From IMG/VR virus record IMGVR_UViG_3300035182_001583, positions 1-20,335 of that record: DNA of 20,335 nucleotides, one strand, 5' to 3'. Below the pieces are notes generated by a model that saw only the letters and a program-made list of their open reading frames with translations, did no database searches and was not told the DNA's origin. Origin of the DNA: a virus. The first letter of the stretch is position 1. The number at the start of each line of letters is the position of its first letter. Below, piece after piece: positions 8,417-14,208 of this stretch. The translations under genes and the position numbers were made by a program.

Positions 8417-8964
8417 TGGCCATCCTTGATCTGCTGCGTGAGCTGCTCGATCGTCTTGTCAGCCGCGGATTGGGCGTCGGGCGGCTGCGCGTTTTTGCTC
8501 GTCCACTGTGTCGCACTGCCCTTCGGGGTACCGGACGAGGGCTTCGGCGGCGAGCTCGGCAGTAGTTTGATCACGACGAGGTAACCGCCGTCCTCCTGTT
8601 TCTCGGCCGCTGCGACGGATTTCGTCACCGCCGCTGTGATGCCGCACTCGAGGCACGACGGGTGCTCGACCGCATAGGCACGCGCCCCTTTCCCCTCGGG
8701 CACGGCCCTCACGACCGCGGCCGCGTCGCCGGTCAGCCACTCATCGAACTCGTCCTCGTCAGCGATCTGCAGCCTGACCTCGAACTCCTGTGGATCGGCG
8801 CCCTGGTAGCGGAGAGTCGCGCCCTTCGTCCCGCTCCCCGCCTGGACGTCGATTTTGCGCTGGTCGACGCACCCAGTAACCCTGGCAATGCCGGGCAGCG
8901 GCAACCCGGCCACCATGAATTTGTTGGCCGGTCCCGGCGTGCGGAGTAGGTTGACGCCGGGCAT
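8413..8964 (-). CDS. Baseplate hub-associated or tube-initiator candidate
   Basis: The 183-residue protein follows the tape measure, where Mu has gp43 and other phages have LysM-type or gp53/U-like hub-associated proteins. Its start, an ATG at 8964, overlaps the tape-measure stop as TGATG, although the same frame runs upstream. The N-terminal half is beta-rich with ARVTGCVDQRKIDVQAGSGT and an acidic EFEVRLQIADEDEFDEWLTG region. It then has AVEHPSCLECGITAAVTKSV, which matches the position of an 'HPxLxxxGI' segment of such proteins but has a CLEC pair (Cys104, Cys107). The C-terminal part is Pro/Ser-rich and ends in a short helix. No classic LysM repeat is visible, so the assignment rests mainly on position. 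Confidence 0.55.
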   Translation of the reverse strand: MPGVNLLRTPGPANKFMVAGLPLPGIARVTGCVDQRKIDVQAGSGTKGATLRYQGADPQEFEVRLQIADEDEFDEWLTGDAAAVVRAVPEGKGARAYAVEHPSCLECGITAAVTKSVAAAEKQEDGGYLVVIKLLPSSPPKPSSGTPKGSATQWTSKNAQPPDAQSAADKTIEQLTQQIKDGQ

Positions 8965-10997
8965 CAGGCGAGCTCCGCGCCGGCTAGTAGACCGGCCTCC
9001 TCGAGGGCGGCGACGACGGCCTCTCGCGCCGCCTGAGCGATGTCCGCCGCACCCGCGCCCATGGCGTTCACGGTGAGGTTCAGCGTCACCGCGCCGCGCC
9101 CCGCGCTCTTGCCCGCGGGCCCTGCCCTGCCCGCCGCGCCAGGCGCCCCGGCGGCGCCCGTTGCGGCAGCGCCGGCCATTGCGCCAGCTGCGTCGGCCAC
9201 GTCGCCCGAACCCGCATCGAGACCCGCGGCGAAACCGGCCGCGGTGTGCCCGCCGAGCCCCATCATCAGGCGCGACGGGCTGTGGATGCCGAGGAAATTT
9301 TTCACGGCCGCGACGCCGGCCTTCACGGGCGCGAGGAGCGCGTCGAGGATGGCGCCCGCGCCGCTCGCGATGCCCTGCACGAGCCCGCTGATCAGGTTCG
9401 CTCCGGCGCTCGCGAACTGCCCGACGAAGCCCGTCACGGCCGACCACGCGCTCGAGAGCCCGCCCTGGATGGCACTGCCGAGGTTGCCGAGCCATCCCGT
9501 GATGGTGCTCCACGCGCTCGCGAGCGCGCTCGCGATCATCGGGCCGACCTTGTCCCAGTTGCGGAACACGTAGACCACGGCCATGACGGCCGCGATGATT
9601 GGCAGGAACGGCGCCGCCGCGGCCGCCGCAATCAGCGCGAATGCGGTCTTGATGGCCGCCCAGATCCCGTTCGCCATGGCCTTGATGCCATTCCACACGG
9701 CGAGCGCGCCTGTTTTGATGCCACTCCAGATCGCCGAGAACATCGCCGGGAGTGCCCTCCACCGCGTGAACAGCAGGTACACGCCCACGATCACGGCGCC
9801 GATCGCGAGGAACGGCCACGTCGCGGCGATGACGGACACCGCCATCGCGCCGAACGCCGTGGCCGCGGCGATCGCGCCCGAGACGAGCGCGGGGACAGCC
9901 GTCACTGCCCACGCGAGCGCGGCCGCGACGACGACCGCGCCGAGCAGTTTCAACGCCGGGATCGCGGGCCGAATCCAGATGAATGCCTGCATTCCGGCGA
10001 TCAACACCGCCTGAAATGCGGCCTTGAGATAGGGCAGCACCGCCGCCGCGGCCGAGAACATCGCGCCGAACATCTGCGTCGCGATCTCCCTCAGTGCACG
10101 TCCCGACGCGCTCGACTGCGAGAACACCGAGAGCAGATCCTGCAGCGCCGAGAGGAATGGCCCCACGTCGATCCCCTCGAAAATCTGCGCGACGTTGTCC
10201 CTCAGCTTGTCTGCCTGGACGCCGAACGAGAGCATTTTGTCGGCCGCGAACGGGCCGGCCGCCTTCGCCGCCGCCGCCGCGAGCGCGTCCTCGAGCGCCT
10301 TGCCGCGCAGTCCCGTTTTCGCCAGCTGCTCGGCGAGGGTGGCGAGCTCGGCGCGCGTCTGCGGCACCGTCTGCGCCACTCGGTTCACCGCCGCGGCGAG
10401 GGCCTCACCACCGGCGCGCGAGCCGCCGACCATCGCGGCGAACGCGAGTTTCTGCGACCGCGCCGCGTCGGCCGCCGCGAACGCGAACTGCGTGAGCCTC
10501 GCGATGCCGGTGACGACGATCGCGGCGAGCGCGACGAGCGCGACGCCCGCGGCGACGGCCATCAGATTCACGCCGCCCAGCGCGCGCGAGAGCATGCCTG
10601 CGCGCTCGAACAGACCTCCCATCGGGCCGAGTGCGCCCTTCGCGGCGAGCAGCATCTGCTCGGTCGACAGGCCGGCATCGTCGGCGGCGGCCGCGAGCTC
10701 GCCGAGTCCCGCCGCGCTCGCCGACCCGACCTTGCCGAACGTCCCGCCGAGCGACACGAACGATGCCTGCGCCTGCCCCACGGCGATCCTCTGCGCCGCG
10801 ATCTGTTCCTTCAGCTGCGCCATCGCCTCCGACCCGGACTGACCGCCTGCCCGGAGGTTGCGCATCGCAGTGGTCATCTCGCGGAGCGCGGACGTGTCGG
10901 CGACGAGTTTCGCGCGCAGCGCCTCGAGAGAGCTCGCGGCGTCCTCTCCGCCGGTCTCCTCGATGTCGATTCCGAATGTCGCCGTCGCGTCCGCCAC
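8964..10997 (-). CDS. Tape measure protein
   Basis: The 677-residue product sets tail length and helps DNA pass the inner membrane. It begins with a helical region (EDAASSLEALRAKLVADTSA) and coiled coil, continues through Ala/Leu-rich hydrophobic stretches at about residues 165-190, 390-420 and 430-455 that look like membrane segments, and includes the Trp-rich repeats AIWSGIKTGALAVWNGIKAM. Near the end it has the tape-measure landmark NFLGIHSPSRLMMGLGGHTA, then a Gly/Ala-rich linker and a beta-like end VTLNLTVNAMG. The GTG at 10997 was chosen because GGAG lies 5 bases upstream and the chaperone fusion stops one base before; the longer ATG-started frame has shadow composition there. At 1.5 angstrom per residue the tail would be about 100 nm. 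Confidence 0.88.
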   Translation of the reverse strand: MADATATFGIDIEETGGEDAASSLEALRAKLVADTSALREMTTAMRNLRAGGQSGSEAMAQLKEQIAAQRIAVGQAQASFVSLGGTFGKVGSASAAGLGELAAAADDAGLSTEQMLLAAKGALGPMGGLFERAGMLSRALGGVNLMAVAAGVALVALAAIVVTGIARLTQFAFAAADAARSQKLAFAAMVGGSRAGGEALAAAVNRVAQTVPQTRAELATLAEQLAKTGLRGKALEDALAAAAAKAAGPFAADKMLSFGVQADKLRDNVAQIFEGIDVGPFLSALQDLLSVFSQSSASGRALREIATQMFGAMFSAAAAVLPYLKAAFQAVLIAGMQAFIWIRPAIPALKLLGAVVVAAALAWAVTAVPALVSGAIAAATAFGAMAVSVIAATWPFLAIGAVIVGVYLLFTRWRALPAMFSAIWSGIKTGALAVWNGIKAMANGIWAAIKTAFALIAAAAAAPFLPIIAAVMAVVYVFRNWDKVGPMIASALASAWSTITGWLGNLGSAIQGGLSSAWSAVTGFVGQFASAGANLISGLVQGIASGAGAILDALLAPVKAGVAAVKNFLGIHSPSRLMMGLGGHTAAGFAAGLDAGSGDVADAAGAMAGAAATGAAGAPGAAGRAGPAGKSAGRGAVTLNLTVNAMGAGAADIAQAAREAVVAALEEAGLLAGAELA

Positions 10998-10998
10998 G

Positions 10999-11651
10999 TC
11001 AGCTCCACGCCGTGCGGAGCCTGGTGAGCTCCGCGAGCCCGCGGGCGACGAGGATCGCGCCCGCCGCGAACCGCCACCGCTCCGCGTCCGTCTCGCCCTC
11101 GCCCAGTCGGTACTGGGCGACGCACGCGCCTGCAACCCACTCGTCGTGCTCCGATCGCGCGACGAGTTCCCTTATTTTCCCGCGTCTTCCTCCACCTGCG
11201 GTCGCCCGAGGTCGTACGCCTCATTTGCACATGCGAGGACCAGGGCAGGGACGCGCTCGGCCATTTTCGCGAACGTGTCCCTGTCCGGATACACGAGGCA
11301 GTGCGCCACCAGCCGCTCCGCGGCGTCGTGGAGCGACGTGCGCACCTTCGGATTCGCATGGTCGGCGCGCCCCGACTCGTCGACGAATCGCCGGTGCACG
11401 AGCGGCGGCGCCGCCTTGACGACCACCATCCCGTCGCGTGGGGTGTTCAGGCGCCGGAGCGCACCGTCGCCGTACTCCTCGACGAGTTCGGCGAACTTGG
11501 CATCATCGGCTGTCGCGCGCTCGATGCGTGCGATCTCGGCCTCGATCCGCCTCGGATCCTGCGCGCGCGCTGCGGCGCGTTGCTCTGCCGCCGCCTCGCG
11601 CGCCTTTTTTGCGGCCGCTAGCCGCGCCTCGAGCTCTTCTACCGTAGCCAT
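10999..11651 (-). CDS. Tail assembly chaperone, -1 frameshift fusion form
   Basis: Slipping one base back at G GGA AAA replaces the TAA stop by an ATA codon and adds 58 residues, giving a 217-residue fusion that ends at TGA 10999-11001, one base before the tape measure start. The added segment reads like a true protein: it begins IRELVARSEHDEWVAGACVA, continues through QYRLGEGETDAERWRFAAGA and ends with an amphipathic helix LTRLRTAWS. It has no start codon with a ribosome site of its own, so frameshift is the simplest way to make it. Programmed frameshifting of the tail chaperone gene is well known across dsDNA tailed phages, including lambda G/GT and Mu-like phages. The fused part is expected to bind tube subunits. 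The heptamer, spacer and hairpin are described separately. Confidence 0.85.
11140..11181 (-). promoter_or_regulatory. Programmed -1 frameshift signal
   Basis: The minus strand holds GGGAAAA (11181-11175) in the register G GGA AAA, immediately followed by TAA (11174-11172). After an 8-base spacer comes a perfect 7-bp stem, CTCGTCG (11166-11160) with CGACGAG (11146-11140), enclosing a 13-base loop. Heptamer of form X XXY YYZ, a 5-9 base spacer and a downstream hairpin are the three known elements of -1 frameshifting. The -1 frame is open for 58 codons. Confidence 0.88.
11172..11651 (-). CDS. Tail assembly chaperone, short (zero-frame) form
   Basis: The 159-residue zero-frame product should bind the tape measure and recruit tube subunits, like lambda gpG. 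It starts with a long charged coiled coil (residues 1-55, EELEARLAAAKKAREAAAEQ and on), followed by a domain with DAAERLVAHCLVYPDRDTF and a final helix MAERVPALVLACANEAYDL. That later domain is characteristic of tail chaperones of Mu-like phages. The frame ends with GGA AAA TAA, where the slippery heptamer lies, immediately before the stop. The start codon overlaps the tube stop as TGATG. The tape measure follows after the frameshift extension. Confidence 0.82.
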   Translation of the reverse strand: MATVEELEARLAAAKKAREAAAEQRAAARAQDPRRIEAEIARIERATADDAKFAELVEEYGDGALRRLNTPRDGMVVVKAAPPLVHRRFVDESGRADHANPKVRTSLHDAAERLVAHCLVYPDRDTFAKMAERVPALVLACANEAYDLGRPQVEEDAGK

Positions 11652-12127
11652 CAGACCCCCTGCTCGTCGCTCTCGAAGAGCGTTCTGCCGTTGCGCCGGA
11701 TCAACCGGACGTAGAACTCGAGGTCCTCCGTCAGCGGGTCCGCGCCCTCCTTGCTCGAGCTGGCACCGCCGGTGTTCAGCCGGCAGTCGATGAGCTCGTG
11801 CGTCTGCACGCCGAGCTCGTCGTCGATGTACTGCACGATGATCGTCCCCTTCGGGGATCCCGTGGAGTTGCCGGTGCGGGAGAGCCCGGCGAGGTGCGTC
11901 CGGATCTCCTCGGCCGTCGTCTTGACGACTGTGATCTTGCACGGGTCGGCCGAGTATTTCCCTCTCGTCGTGCCGAGGGGAACCTGCGAGGCGCCGCGCA
12001 CCTCGCCCCGCTCGAGCTTGTCGTTGTAGTCGATCGAGGTGAAGCCCACGACCTTCAACCCGAAGATGTCGAGCCGCGCGGAGCTGTGGTCGTAGGCTTT
12101 GCCGTTGACGAGTACTGCCTCGCTCAT
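11651..12127 (-). CDS. Tail tube protein
   Basis: The 158-residue product follows the sheath and is the tube of the contractile tail. It is beta-rich and of the usual length for Mu gpM-like tubes. Landmarks are an N-terminal VNGKAYDHSSARLDIFGLKV with the two strands that build the inner ring, IDYNDKLERGEVRGASQVPL (the loop rich in charged residues that contacts neighbouring subunits), then ITVVKTTAEEIRTHL and an EDLEFYVRLIRRNGRTLF C-terminal strand. The ATG at 12127 has AGGAG 6 to 7 bases upstream. The stop overlaps the chaperone ATG (TGATG), as expected for the tube-chaperone-tape measure order. Confidence 0.84.
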   Translation of the reverse strand: MSEAVLVNGKAYDHSSARLDIFGLKVVGFTSIDYNDKLERGEVRGASQVPLGTTRGKYSADPCKITVVKTTAEEIRTHLAGLSRTGNSTGSPKGTIIVQYIDDELGVQTHELIDCRLNTGGASSSKEGADPLTEDLEFYVRLIRRNGRTLFESDEQGV

Positions 12128-12140
12128 TGGTTCTCTCCTG

Positions 12141-13613
12141 TTAGGCCGCAGCCGGGTTGATCGCAGCCACCGTGAAGTTGATCGCCTTCGGGTAGCCCCG
12201 GAAGAGGATCCCTCCGTCCGCCGAGAGGGTCTGCGTCGAGAGGACGAGATCGTCCCGGTGCAGGCGGAACTCGAGGCGCGAGACGTGCGTTTTCAGCGAG
12301 TCGCTCAGCGCCGCGAGCACGCGCGCCTCGATACGCTGGCACTCGCGTTCCGTGGGCGCGCCCGCGACGTTCGCGCCGTTGGTTCGCCAGTTCAGATCGA
12401 GCGCGCGCGAGAGCTCGTCGACGAGGACGCGCCGCGCGAGGTTGCAGAACTCGGTCAGAATGCGGACGTGCTGGTCGAGGTGGAAATCGCCACCGGGCTG
12501 CTCGAGCGTGACGGGGTCGTTCACGAACACGCCGGATTTGTCCGGCCACGTGCGGAGCACGAGCGCGCGGACGTCGGAGAGGCCGGGGCGCAGCATCTCG
12601 TCGTGCTCGACCTGGTTGCCGTTCTCGTCGTAGAGCGACACGCCAGGCAGGCCGTCCGGCGTCGCGTCGACGGTCTGCGACATGTCGACACCGAGCGGGA
12701 GCGCGCCGGGCAGCCCCGCGATCGCGTGCAGCGTCGGACGACGGTAGACGTACGCGCGACCGGGGCGCGCGGAGAGCACGCGCGCGGCCGCCGCGCAGAT
12801 CGTGATCCGCCTGTCGCTGAATCCCTCGAAGGCCGACGCGAACGCCGTGAGGTAGTCGGCCTCGGACTCGCTCGCGCGCGGCAGGCGGTACGAGCAGTAT
12901 ATCTTGCGCGCCTTGCCGGTGGTGTTCTCGACCGACGTGAGCCACGCCGAGAGGGCCGCAGCGATCGTCGCGTCGACCGGCGAGCCGATCCACACGTGCC
13001 GCCACGGCTGCGACGACGCGAGCAGCGCGTTCAGCGCGGTCGTGAGGTCGCTCGCCGTCGCCTCGGGCGCGTGCGTGACGACCGACCAGGTGTCGCCCGG
13101 AACGAGCGTGCCAGCGGCGAGCGCGAACCTCACGCCACCGCTGTTCGCGATGGTGATCGAGCTCGCCGTGCCGAGCGCGAGCGGCGTCGACCAGGTCCGG
13201 CCGTGGTCGAGGCTCGTGCGGTAGGTGCCACCGGCCGTGCCGACCGTGCAGCCACGCACGATCTCGACCCTCGCCTCGTAGTCGTCGTCGGCGCTCGCCG
13301 TGGCGTCCAGCGTGACGACGCTCGTGCCCGTGACGCCGCTCGTGTCGAGCGCGTCGAAACTCGACGCCGTGCTCGCCTCCGAGCGGACCATCACGACGTC
13401 TCCGCGCCAGTTCTCGATCGCCCGGCACGCGAGCTCGGGTGTCGGGCCGCTCGTGTAGAGCGAGAGCAGGTCGGTCGTGCGCACGTGGCGCGTCGGCCTG
13501 TTTTTCGCTCCCGCCGCGCACGGTCCCACGTACGCGTGGCACTCGACGCCGCCGGGCGGGCGGACGCCGAGCCGACCATTCACAACGTTGTAGGTGACGG
13601 ACTGGACGGTCAT
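12141..13613 (-). CDS. Contractile tail sheath protein
   Basis: The 490-residue product is the outer sheath that shortens on infection to drive the tube into the cell. It has the layout of sheath proteins of the DUF2586-like group: a short N-terminal arm, a beta-rich inserted region at about residues 94-185 with GGTYRTSLDHGRTWSTPLAL and LVPGDTWSVVTHAPE, and a C-terminal domain made of LTEFCNLARRVLVDELSRAL and VLSTQTLSADGGILFRGYPK. The C-terminal domain is the most conserved part of sheaths, forming the strand-exchange mesh. The ATG at 13613 has GAAGGAG 6 bases upstream, clearly favoured over the longer frame. The next gene, the tube, starts 13 bp downstream, the standard sheath-tube pair. Confidence 0.88.
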   Translation of the reverse strand: MTVQSVTYNVVNGRLGVRPPGGVECHAYVGPCAAGAKNRPTRHVRTTDLLSLYTSGPTPELACRAIENWRGDVVMVRSEASTASSFDALDTSGVTGTSVVTLDATASADDDYEARVEIVRGCTVGTAGGTYRTSLDHGRTWSTPLALGTASSITIANSGGVRFALAAGTLVPGDTWSVVTHAPEATASDLTTALNALLASSQPWRHVWIGSPVDATIAAALSAWLTSVENTTGKARKIYCSYRLPRASESEADYLTAFASAFEGFSDRRITICAAAARVLSARPGRAYVYRRPTLHAIAGLPGALPLGVDMSQTVDATPDGLPGVSLYDENGNQVEHDEMLRPGLSDVRALVLRTWPDKSGVFVNDPVTLEQPGGDFHLDQHVRILTEFCNLARRVLVDELSRALDLNWRTNGANVAGAPTERECQRIEARVLAALSDSLKTHVSRLEFRLHRDDLVLSTQTLSADGGILFRGYPKAINFTVAAINPAAA

Positions 13614-13623
13614 GCGATCTCCT

Positions 13624-14208
13624 TCATCCGCACGGCTGCGGCACGCCGCTCCCCGAGAGCGACGCAATGGTCCCATCGACGGTGGTCACGGTGCCGCCCG
13701 CGACCTCCGGCGTCACGTCGTCTGGAATCATCGCCTCCACGGCGATCACGATGGCGAGCTCCGCACCGAACCGCTGCTCGAGCTCGGGCCGCACCCACGT
13801 CGCGTCGAGCTGCTTCCAGCGGCCGCGGAAACTGCGGATCACGATCGGGACGACGAGATCGTGCAGCCGGCGCGCGGCGCGATACTGGCCGAGCTCCGTC
13901 CTGTCGGTGGGGTCGACCGCCCATAGATAGAGCGTGGCGAGCTCGACGAGCGTCGCGACAGGCGCGGGGTTGCGCCCAGGGAGTTTCGCGCCCTCGAGGC
14001 TACCGATCTTGCCACTCGGGTCGCCCGGCTGGAGCACGACACGCGCGGCGCCGCCCGGGCCGGTGTTCGTCTGTTTCGACGGCTCTCGCCACCCGAACAC
14101 ACACGAGATCGGCGGCGTCAGATTCGGCGGCGTCGGCGGCCGGCGCTCGAGCGTCTCGGCCTGCAGCCGCTGAAACAGGTACTCGAGGGCGAGGGTCGGG
14201 GCCGCCAT
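13624..14208 (-). CDS. Neck or tail-terminator candidate, unassigned
   Basis: This 194-residue protein sits exactly where Mu-like phages keep the tail terminator or gp37-type protein, between the completion protein and the sheath. It has a mixed fold: an N-terminal helix LALEYLFQRLQAETLERRPP, a Pro-rich turn, VFGWREPSKQ, then VPIVIRSFRGRWKQLDATWV and an acidic helix before IVIAVEAMIPDDV. The alternating strands and the helix placement would suit a terminator-like alpha/beta fold, but I do not recognise a family signature. The start is an ATG at 14208 overlapping the upstream stop. The sheath gene starts 10 bp downstream with its own strong ribosome site, so coupling is weaker here than elsewhere. 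Confidence 0.55.
   Translation of the reverse strand: MAAPTLALEYLFQRLQAETLERRPPTPPNLTPPISCVFGWREPSKQTNTGPGGAARVVLQPGDPSGKIGSLEGAKLPGRNPAPVATLVELATLYLWAVDPTDRTELGQYRAARRLHDLVVPIVIRSFRGRWKQLDATWVRPELEQRFGAELAIVIAVEAMIPDDVTPEVAGGTVTTVDGTIASLSGSGVPQPCG

Follow-up and report, generated by a model that had tools for sequence, protein, structure and literature searches.

A predicted −1 frameshift site adjoining the stop codon of a tail assembly chaperone gene, and its relatives in a group of Mu/Mx4-like contractile phages

The window, a 20,335-base virus record of 71% G+C analysed here over its whole length, very probably carries a programmed −1 frameshift site of the lambda G/GT type in its tail assembly chaperone gene, as predicted from sequence and fold tests. 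Every feature cited lies on the minus strand. The arrangement of the site was confirmed as real and is common to dozens of related phages. Frameshifting in tail chaperones is textbook knowledge; what this analysis adds is a sizeable group of Mu/Mx4-like contractile phages, most of it unannotated, in which the stop codon lies no more than 9 nt from the slip word. Most ribosomes would read GCG GGA AAA and then stop at the adjoining TAA to give a 159-aa chaperone, while a minority would shift back by one base at G GGA AAA and continue in the −1 frame to give a 217-aa chaperone. Through its three-helix extension, the longer form should bring the tail tube protein to the tape measure once this is coated with chaperone. 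From lambda, we infer that the shift would occur at a few percent and that the extension would have this binding partner. Some relatives have a first slip codon (GCA, TCA, CGA) that is unable to re-pair in the −1 frame, and the two-tRNA model therefore does not fit every member.

The chaperone gene closes, in the zero frame, with GAG GAA GAC GCG GGA AAA TAA. The slippery heptamer G GGA AAA (11181–11175) touches the zero-frame TAA stop (11174–11172), and the last A of the heptamer together with the stop bases forms the −1 codon ATA. The −1 reading, which starts GGG AAA ATA AGG, is open for 58 codons (11175–11002) and ends at a TGA (11001–10999), with one base between this stop and the GTG start of the tape measure gene at 10997. 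Added to the 159 aa of the chaperone, these 58 codons give the predicted fusion its length of 217 aa. The original prediction had placed the heptamer in register directly before the TAA and had the 58-codon frame end one base short of the tape measure, and all of its coordinates were confirmed on the minus strand.

The chaperone gene (11172–11651) has an ATG start, and its gpG-like product of 159 aa ends in DAGK at the slip site, followed by the TAA. By sequence alone, the protein gave a weak match to an unnamed PHROG only, and tblastn against named phages returned no match. An AlphaFold model built from a 27-member alignment (pLDDT 92.6) has 3fgx as its best PDB match in VIA-align, with a Z of 9.6 and an rmsd of 4.1 over 93 residues, followed by HK97 gp13 (2ob9, Z 5.7) and YqbN (3klu, Z 5.5); the sequence profile also reaches 3fgx (E=1.4e-4). 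All three proteins are described as phage tail assembly chaperones (PMC9603447). The upstream protein is thus, by its predicted fold and sequence profile, a tail assembly chaperone. Its neighbours are the tail tube protein directly upstream (11651–12127; phrog_4579 tail protein, E=4.5e-7), the DUF2586 tail sheath protein beyond it (12141–13676; PF10758, E=1.7e-20; phrog_907), which marks a contractile tail, and the tape measure protein (8964–10997; phrog_58, E=8.6e-27). With the order sheath, tube, chaperone, tape measure, the chaperone sits between tube and tape measure, as in lambda-type systems. The window carries portal, major head and baseplate J genes as well.

Searches of IMG/VR with the chaperone, sheath or baseplate protein alone found no close relatives. 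Relatives were then gathered through sheath alignments, which gave 73 and then 80 viral loci in overlapping sets, and an iterated HMM was used to find the extension across loci. The nearest relative, L079, came from a genome scan and is a deltaproteobacterial MAG with 77% sheath identity. The extension has homologues in 105 loci, which takes it beyond chance; 88 of these carry a −1 slip site, 12 encode it in +1, and 5 were unresolved. Between the window and L079, the extension stretch (11175–11002) is 72% identical in the −1 frame, compared to 64% and 55% in the other frames, and the zero frame of L079 contains three stops across it. The junction of L079, GCG GGA AAA TAA, matches that of the window exactly, and the word G GGA AAA occurs in 35 of the 67 non-redundant relatives, window included, on which the heptamer and gap counts are based. 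Among the aligned relatives that have a −1 site, the chaperone ends at the slip site or within a few codons of it, and many extensions begin with GKI, which is the heptamer itself read in the −1 frame. The original prediction had staked itself on related phages keeping both the −1 frame and the heptamer; the outcome is in its favour, with the frame conserved across the 88 loci and the heptamer retained in L079. The AlphaFold model of the extension is compact, with three helices and a pLDDT of 97.3, and HMM homology likewise supports treating it as a T-like domain. It has no match among PHROG families, so no sequence link to lambda T was found.

Judged from these alignments, the −1 frame is kept as a protein without a start of its own, as in lambda-type sites. 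The competing view that the extension is a separate small gene, expressed by translational coupling or from its own start, draws on the two-gene annotation of some relatives (Mx4_p57/p58, MMP7, Riverbug), but we regard it as improbable. There is no in-frame ATG, GTG or TTG in the extension of the window, as had been noted before; in the first 30 extension codons, 23 of the 67 relatives lack any start and only three have one with a ribosome site. An own start was rejected on this survey. Furthermore, the slip site is kept where the two frames meet. Readthrough of the TAA would instead join the chaperone to the tape measure, and in the window the zero frame is indeed open for 736 codons after the TAA (8964–11171), into the tape measure. 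However, such an open frame looks like a coincidence in a genome of 71% G+C; the relatives meet their next zero-frame stop at a median of 41 codons, and L079 has its three stops in the stretch. On these zero-frame stops readthrough was rejected, and it is very improbable. Even less credible is a sequencing error or decayed gene, in which a lost base split one gene in two: the window is a single contig of unknown coverage, but the same frame relation and slippery junction words recur in 88 loci from many separate samples, and the relatives refute this explanation.

Transcriptional slippage is unlikely in the window, where the run has only four A's. In two relatives, L125 (6700–6721) and L126, nine A's lie directly before the TAA/TAG at the junction, and here RNA polymerase slippage could replace ribosomal slippage. 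The genome-borne loci L161 and L167–L169 have GTG GGG GGG ATC and then a stop at the junction, with a G-run slip site instead of an A-rich one. In the published phages Mx4, MMP7, MMP17 and Riverbug, the extension is annotated as a separate hypothetical gene or left unannotated (L003, 9236–9448; L004, 9212–9361; L005; L002, 9217–9309); these extensions look like unannotated frameshift products.

The position of the stop sets this group apart. The zero-frame stop follows the slip word after a gap of 0 nt in 44 of the 67 relatives, 3 nt in 18, 6 nt in three and 9 nt in two, compared to 15 nt in lambda and 18 nt in P2; in HK97, an in-register G GAA AAG was located from the sequence 15 nt before the stop. 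For published phage sets, PRFect gives mean gaps of 26 nt (SEA-PHAGES) and 36 nt (Xu set; PMC10885494). As the gap is so often 0 and never exceeds 9 nt, against 15–18 nt and means of 26–36 nt elsewhere, adjacency is a trait of this phage group. A stop touching the heptamer had been called unusual, which holds against lambda, P2, HK97 and the published phage averages; as an oddity of a single phage the claim does not hold, since adjacency is the rule in the group. The closeness of the stop looks selected, because beyond the chaperone stop the zero frame runs on for a median of 41 codons before it meets another. Codon counts indicate that a gap of 0 is bought with a rare −1 codon in most relatives: ATA is the first −1 codon in 43 of 67, although the long ORFs of these loci use it for 4.1% of their Ile codons. 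A quick sheath tree, which served solely to set a lower limit on the changes and in which the sheath was probably mis-extracted in about five long-branch rows, L079 included, requires 10 or more transitions in gap state; thus, adjacency came or went many times. Selection to end the short product at once is the likeliest reason for adjacency, and adjacency might additionally let termination compete with slippage.

A stronger role for the stop can be envisaged, in which the ribosome slips once translocation has brought the tRNA-Lys, paired to AAA, into the P site and the stop into the A site. We consider this timing possible but doubtful. Equally tentative is the proposal built on it, that the stop would be part of the −1 shift signal: tRNA-Lys would slip on A_AAA with a TAA or TAG standing in the A site, and host release-factor activity would set the ratio of long to short chaperone and hence tail assembly. 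The frequencies of gap 0 and of ATA as first −1 codon are in keeping with such coupling, as are the repeated gap changes on the quick tree, and the stop does stand directly 3′ of the slip codon, as in shifty-stop cases. Moreover, 12 non-redundant relatives combine a non-canonical heptamer (GCA, TCA or GAA before AAA) with an adjacent stop. Relatives such as L085 (GCA AAA TAG) and L134 (TCA AAA TAG) have just a lone A_AAA tetramer beside the stop, which fits P-site slippage at a stop. In E. coli, a lone A_AAA tetramer shifts poorly (PMC4066793). In earlier bacterial work, as described in PMC4373837, frameshifting at the HIV slip word fell when a stop codon was placed behind it, became dependent on release factor and disappeared with additional RF2, an outcome interpreted as slipping while the stop occupies the A site. 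Ribosomes detained at a stop codon can also get past it, shifting by −1 or +1 (PMC7544508).

Against coupling, non-canonical first codons also occur at gaps of 3 or 6 nt (L012, L046, L059, L063, L068), comparable lone tetramers are seen with gaps of 3–6 nt, 18 relatives have a gap of 3 nt, the classical mechanism requires no stop, and TAA is read by both release factors, so good termination is expected. Non-canonical heptamers were not significantly associated with gap 0 (Fisher p 0.25 to 0.77); in the window-type clade, gap 0 is found at 12 of 13 non-canonical sites and at 28 of 39 canonical sites (p=0.25). The notion that a non-canonical heptamer always comes with an adjacent stop was accordingly rejected as evidence. 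The natural variants, with adjacent or spaced stops and slippable or non-slippable first codons, allow a test of whether slipping precedes or follows entry of the next codon into the A site. Established shifty-stop cases, in prfB and in viruses, share the stop directly after the slip site (PMC4373837), but prfB shifts +1 and regulates RF2, and the viral cases are eukaryotic.

The programmed −1 site may be helped by flanking elements, including a hairpin 3′ of the heptamer that could act as a stimulator (ACTCGTCG / CGACGAGT, 11139–11167, 13-nt loop). Its arms CTCGTCG (11166–11160) and CGACGAG (11146–11140) enclose the loop at 11159–11147; with A11167–T11139 counted as an eighth pair, the true spacer is 7 nt. 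The perfect pairing and 13-base loop of the original prediction are thus present, while its size and spacing, 7 bp after eight bases, need correcting to 8 bp and 7 nt. This stem exceeds chance only modestly: at random places on the same strand, with spacers of 4–10 nt, perfect stems of at least 7 bp occur at 2.9% and of at least 8 bp at 0.8%. Its folding z ranges from −1.0 to −2.0, and is −0.24 in the standard 50-nt window. In L079, two of the eight pairs are broken without compensation (C-G to C-A and G-C to C-C), and the stem was therefore rejected as a conserved element. The original prediction had proposed to compare the stem among related phages, and it is not kept in the closest of them; the description of a complete cassette consequently rests on a family-level excess of structure. 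As a whole, that prediction stands in its central reading of a −1 frameshift site in the chaperone gene, on which fold, gene order, heptamer and conserved extension agree, and falls short in the stem as it was drawn.

In the family as a whole, the 60 nt that follow the slip word on its 3′ side fold more stably than windows taken from the tape measure (mean percentile 0.18, KS p 3e-15), with a p-value that is too small because the loci are related. Part of this excess is composition: dinucleotide-shuffle z has a family mean of about −0.7, and is −0.24 for the window and +0.33 for L079. Perfect stems of at least 7 bp are found in 8 of the 67 relatives, compared to 1.3 expected. Not every known site of the lambda type depends on a stimulatory 3′ structure. 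A second, perfect 9-bp hairpin (TCGCCCAGT-ACCG-ACTGGGCGA, 11099–11120) lies inside the extension, 54 nt past the heptamer, and is not evidently kept in L079.

On the 5′ side, a Shine-Dalgarno-like stretch, AGGTGGAGGAAG (11186–11197), is a further possible stimulator, with a hybrid energy of −9.3 kcal/mol in both the window and L079; it had been missed before. The corresponding element of dnaX is farther from its slip word. From 60 nt upstream to 30 nt downstream, pairing with the 16S tail is strongest at −12, with a family mean of −5.06 versus a background of −1.2. Relative to a synonymous null, the family excess is small (−6.5 versus −5.3, p 5e-5), and the pairing of the window itself does not exceed its null. 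Conserved E-E-V/L residues, with their glutamates, account for most of this signal.

Compared with known systems, the site resembles lambda G/GT (G GGA AAG): the gene lies between the major tail protein and the tape measure, an X XXY YYZ word is found near the 3′ end of the chaperone, and the −1 extension ends at the tape measure start. It differs in the stop, which lambda has 15 nt past the heptamer, and in an extension that matches no PHROG family. HK97 gp13/gp14 and P2 E/E′ share the gene position and −1 direction; the chaperone fold matches HK97 gp13, and the G GAA AAA found in some relatives is similar to the HK97 word G GAA AAG, but the HK97 and P2 stops stand 15 and 18 nt past the slip word. 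Phage Mu has a similar head and tail gene order and a contractile tail, whereas the shift at its gp41 is −2 as annotated, compared to −1 in the group of the window. Myxococcus phage Mx4 has a homologous chaperone and extension in p57/p58, in the −1 frame with the slip word A AAA AAA; unlike in the window, its stop lies 6 nt past the heptamer and the two are annotated as separate genes.

The loci with the extension in the +1 frame are L002, L004, L027, L029, L033, L034 and L036–L041, which are of Thermus/Meiothermus type and have it at the chaperone/tape-measure junction. As these relatives read the same extension in +1, the direction of frameshifting seems to have switched within one chaperone family, which suggests that the product can persist through a change of direction. 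Among the junction sequences listed for them, all except Riverbug (L002) show a TTT C tetramer shortly ahead of the zero-frame stop, at a distance of up to about 18 nt.
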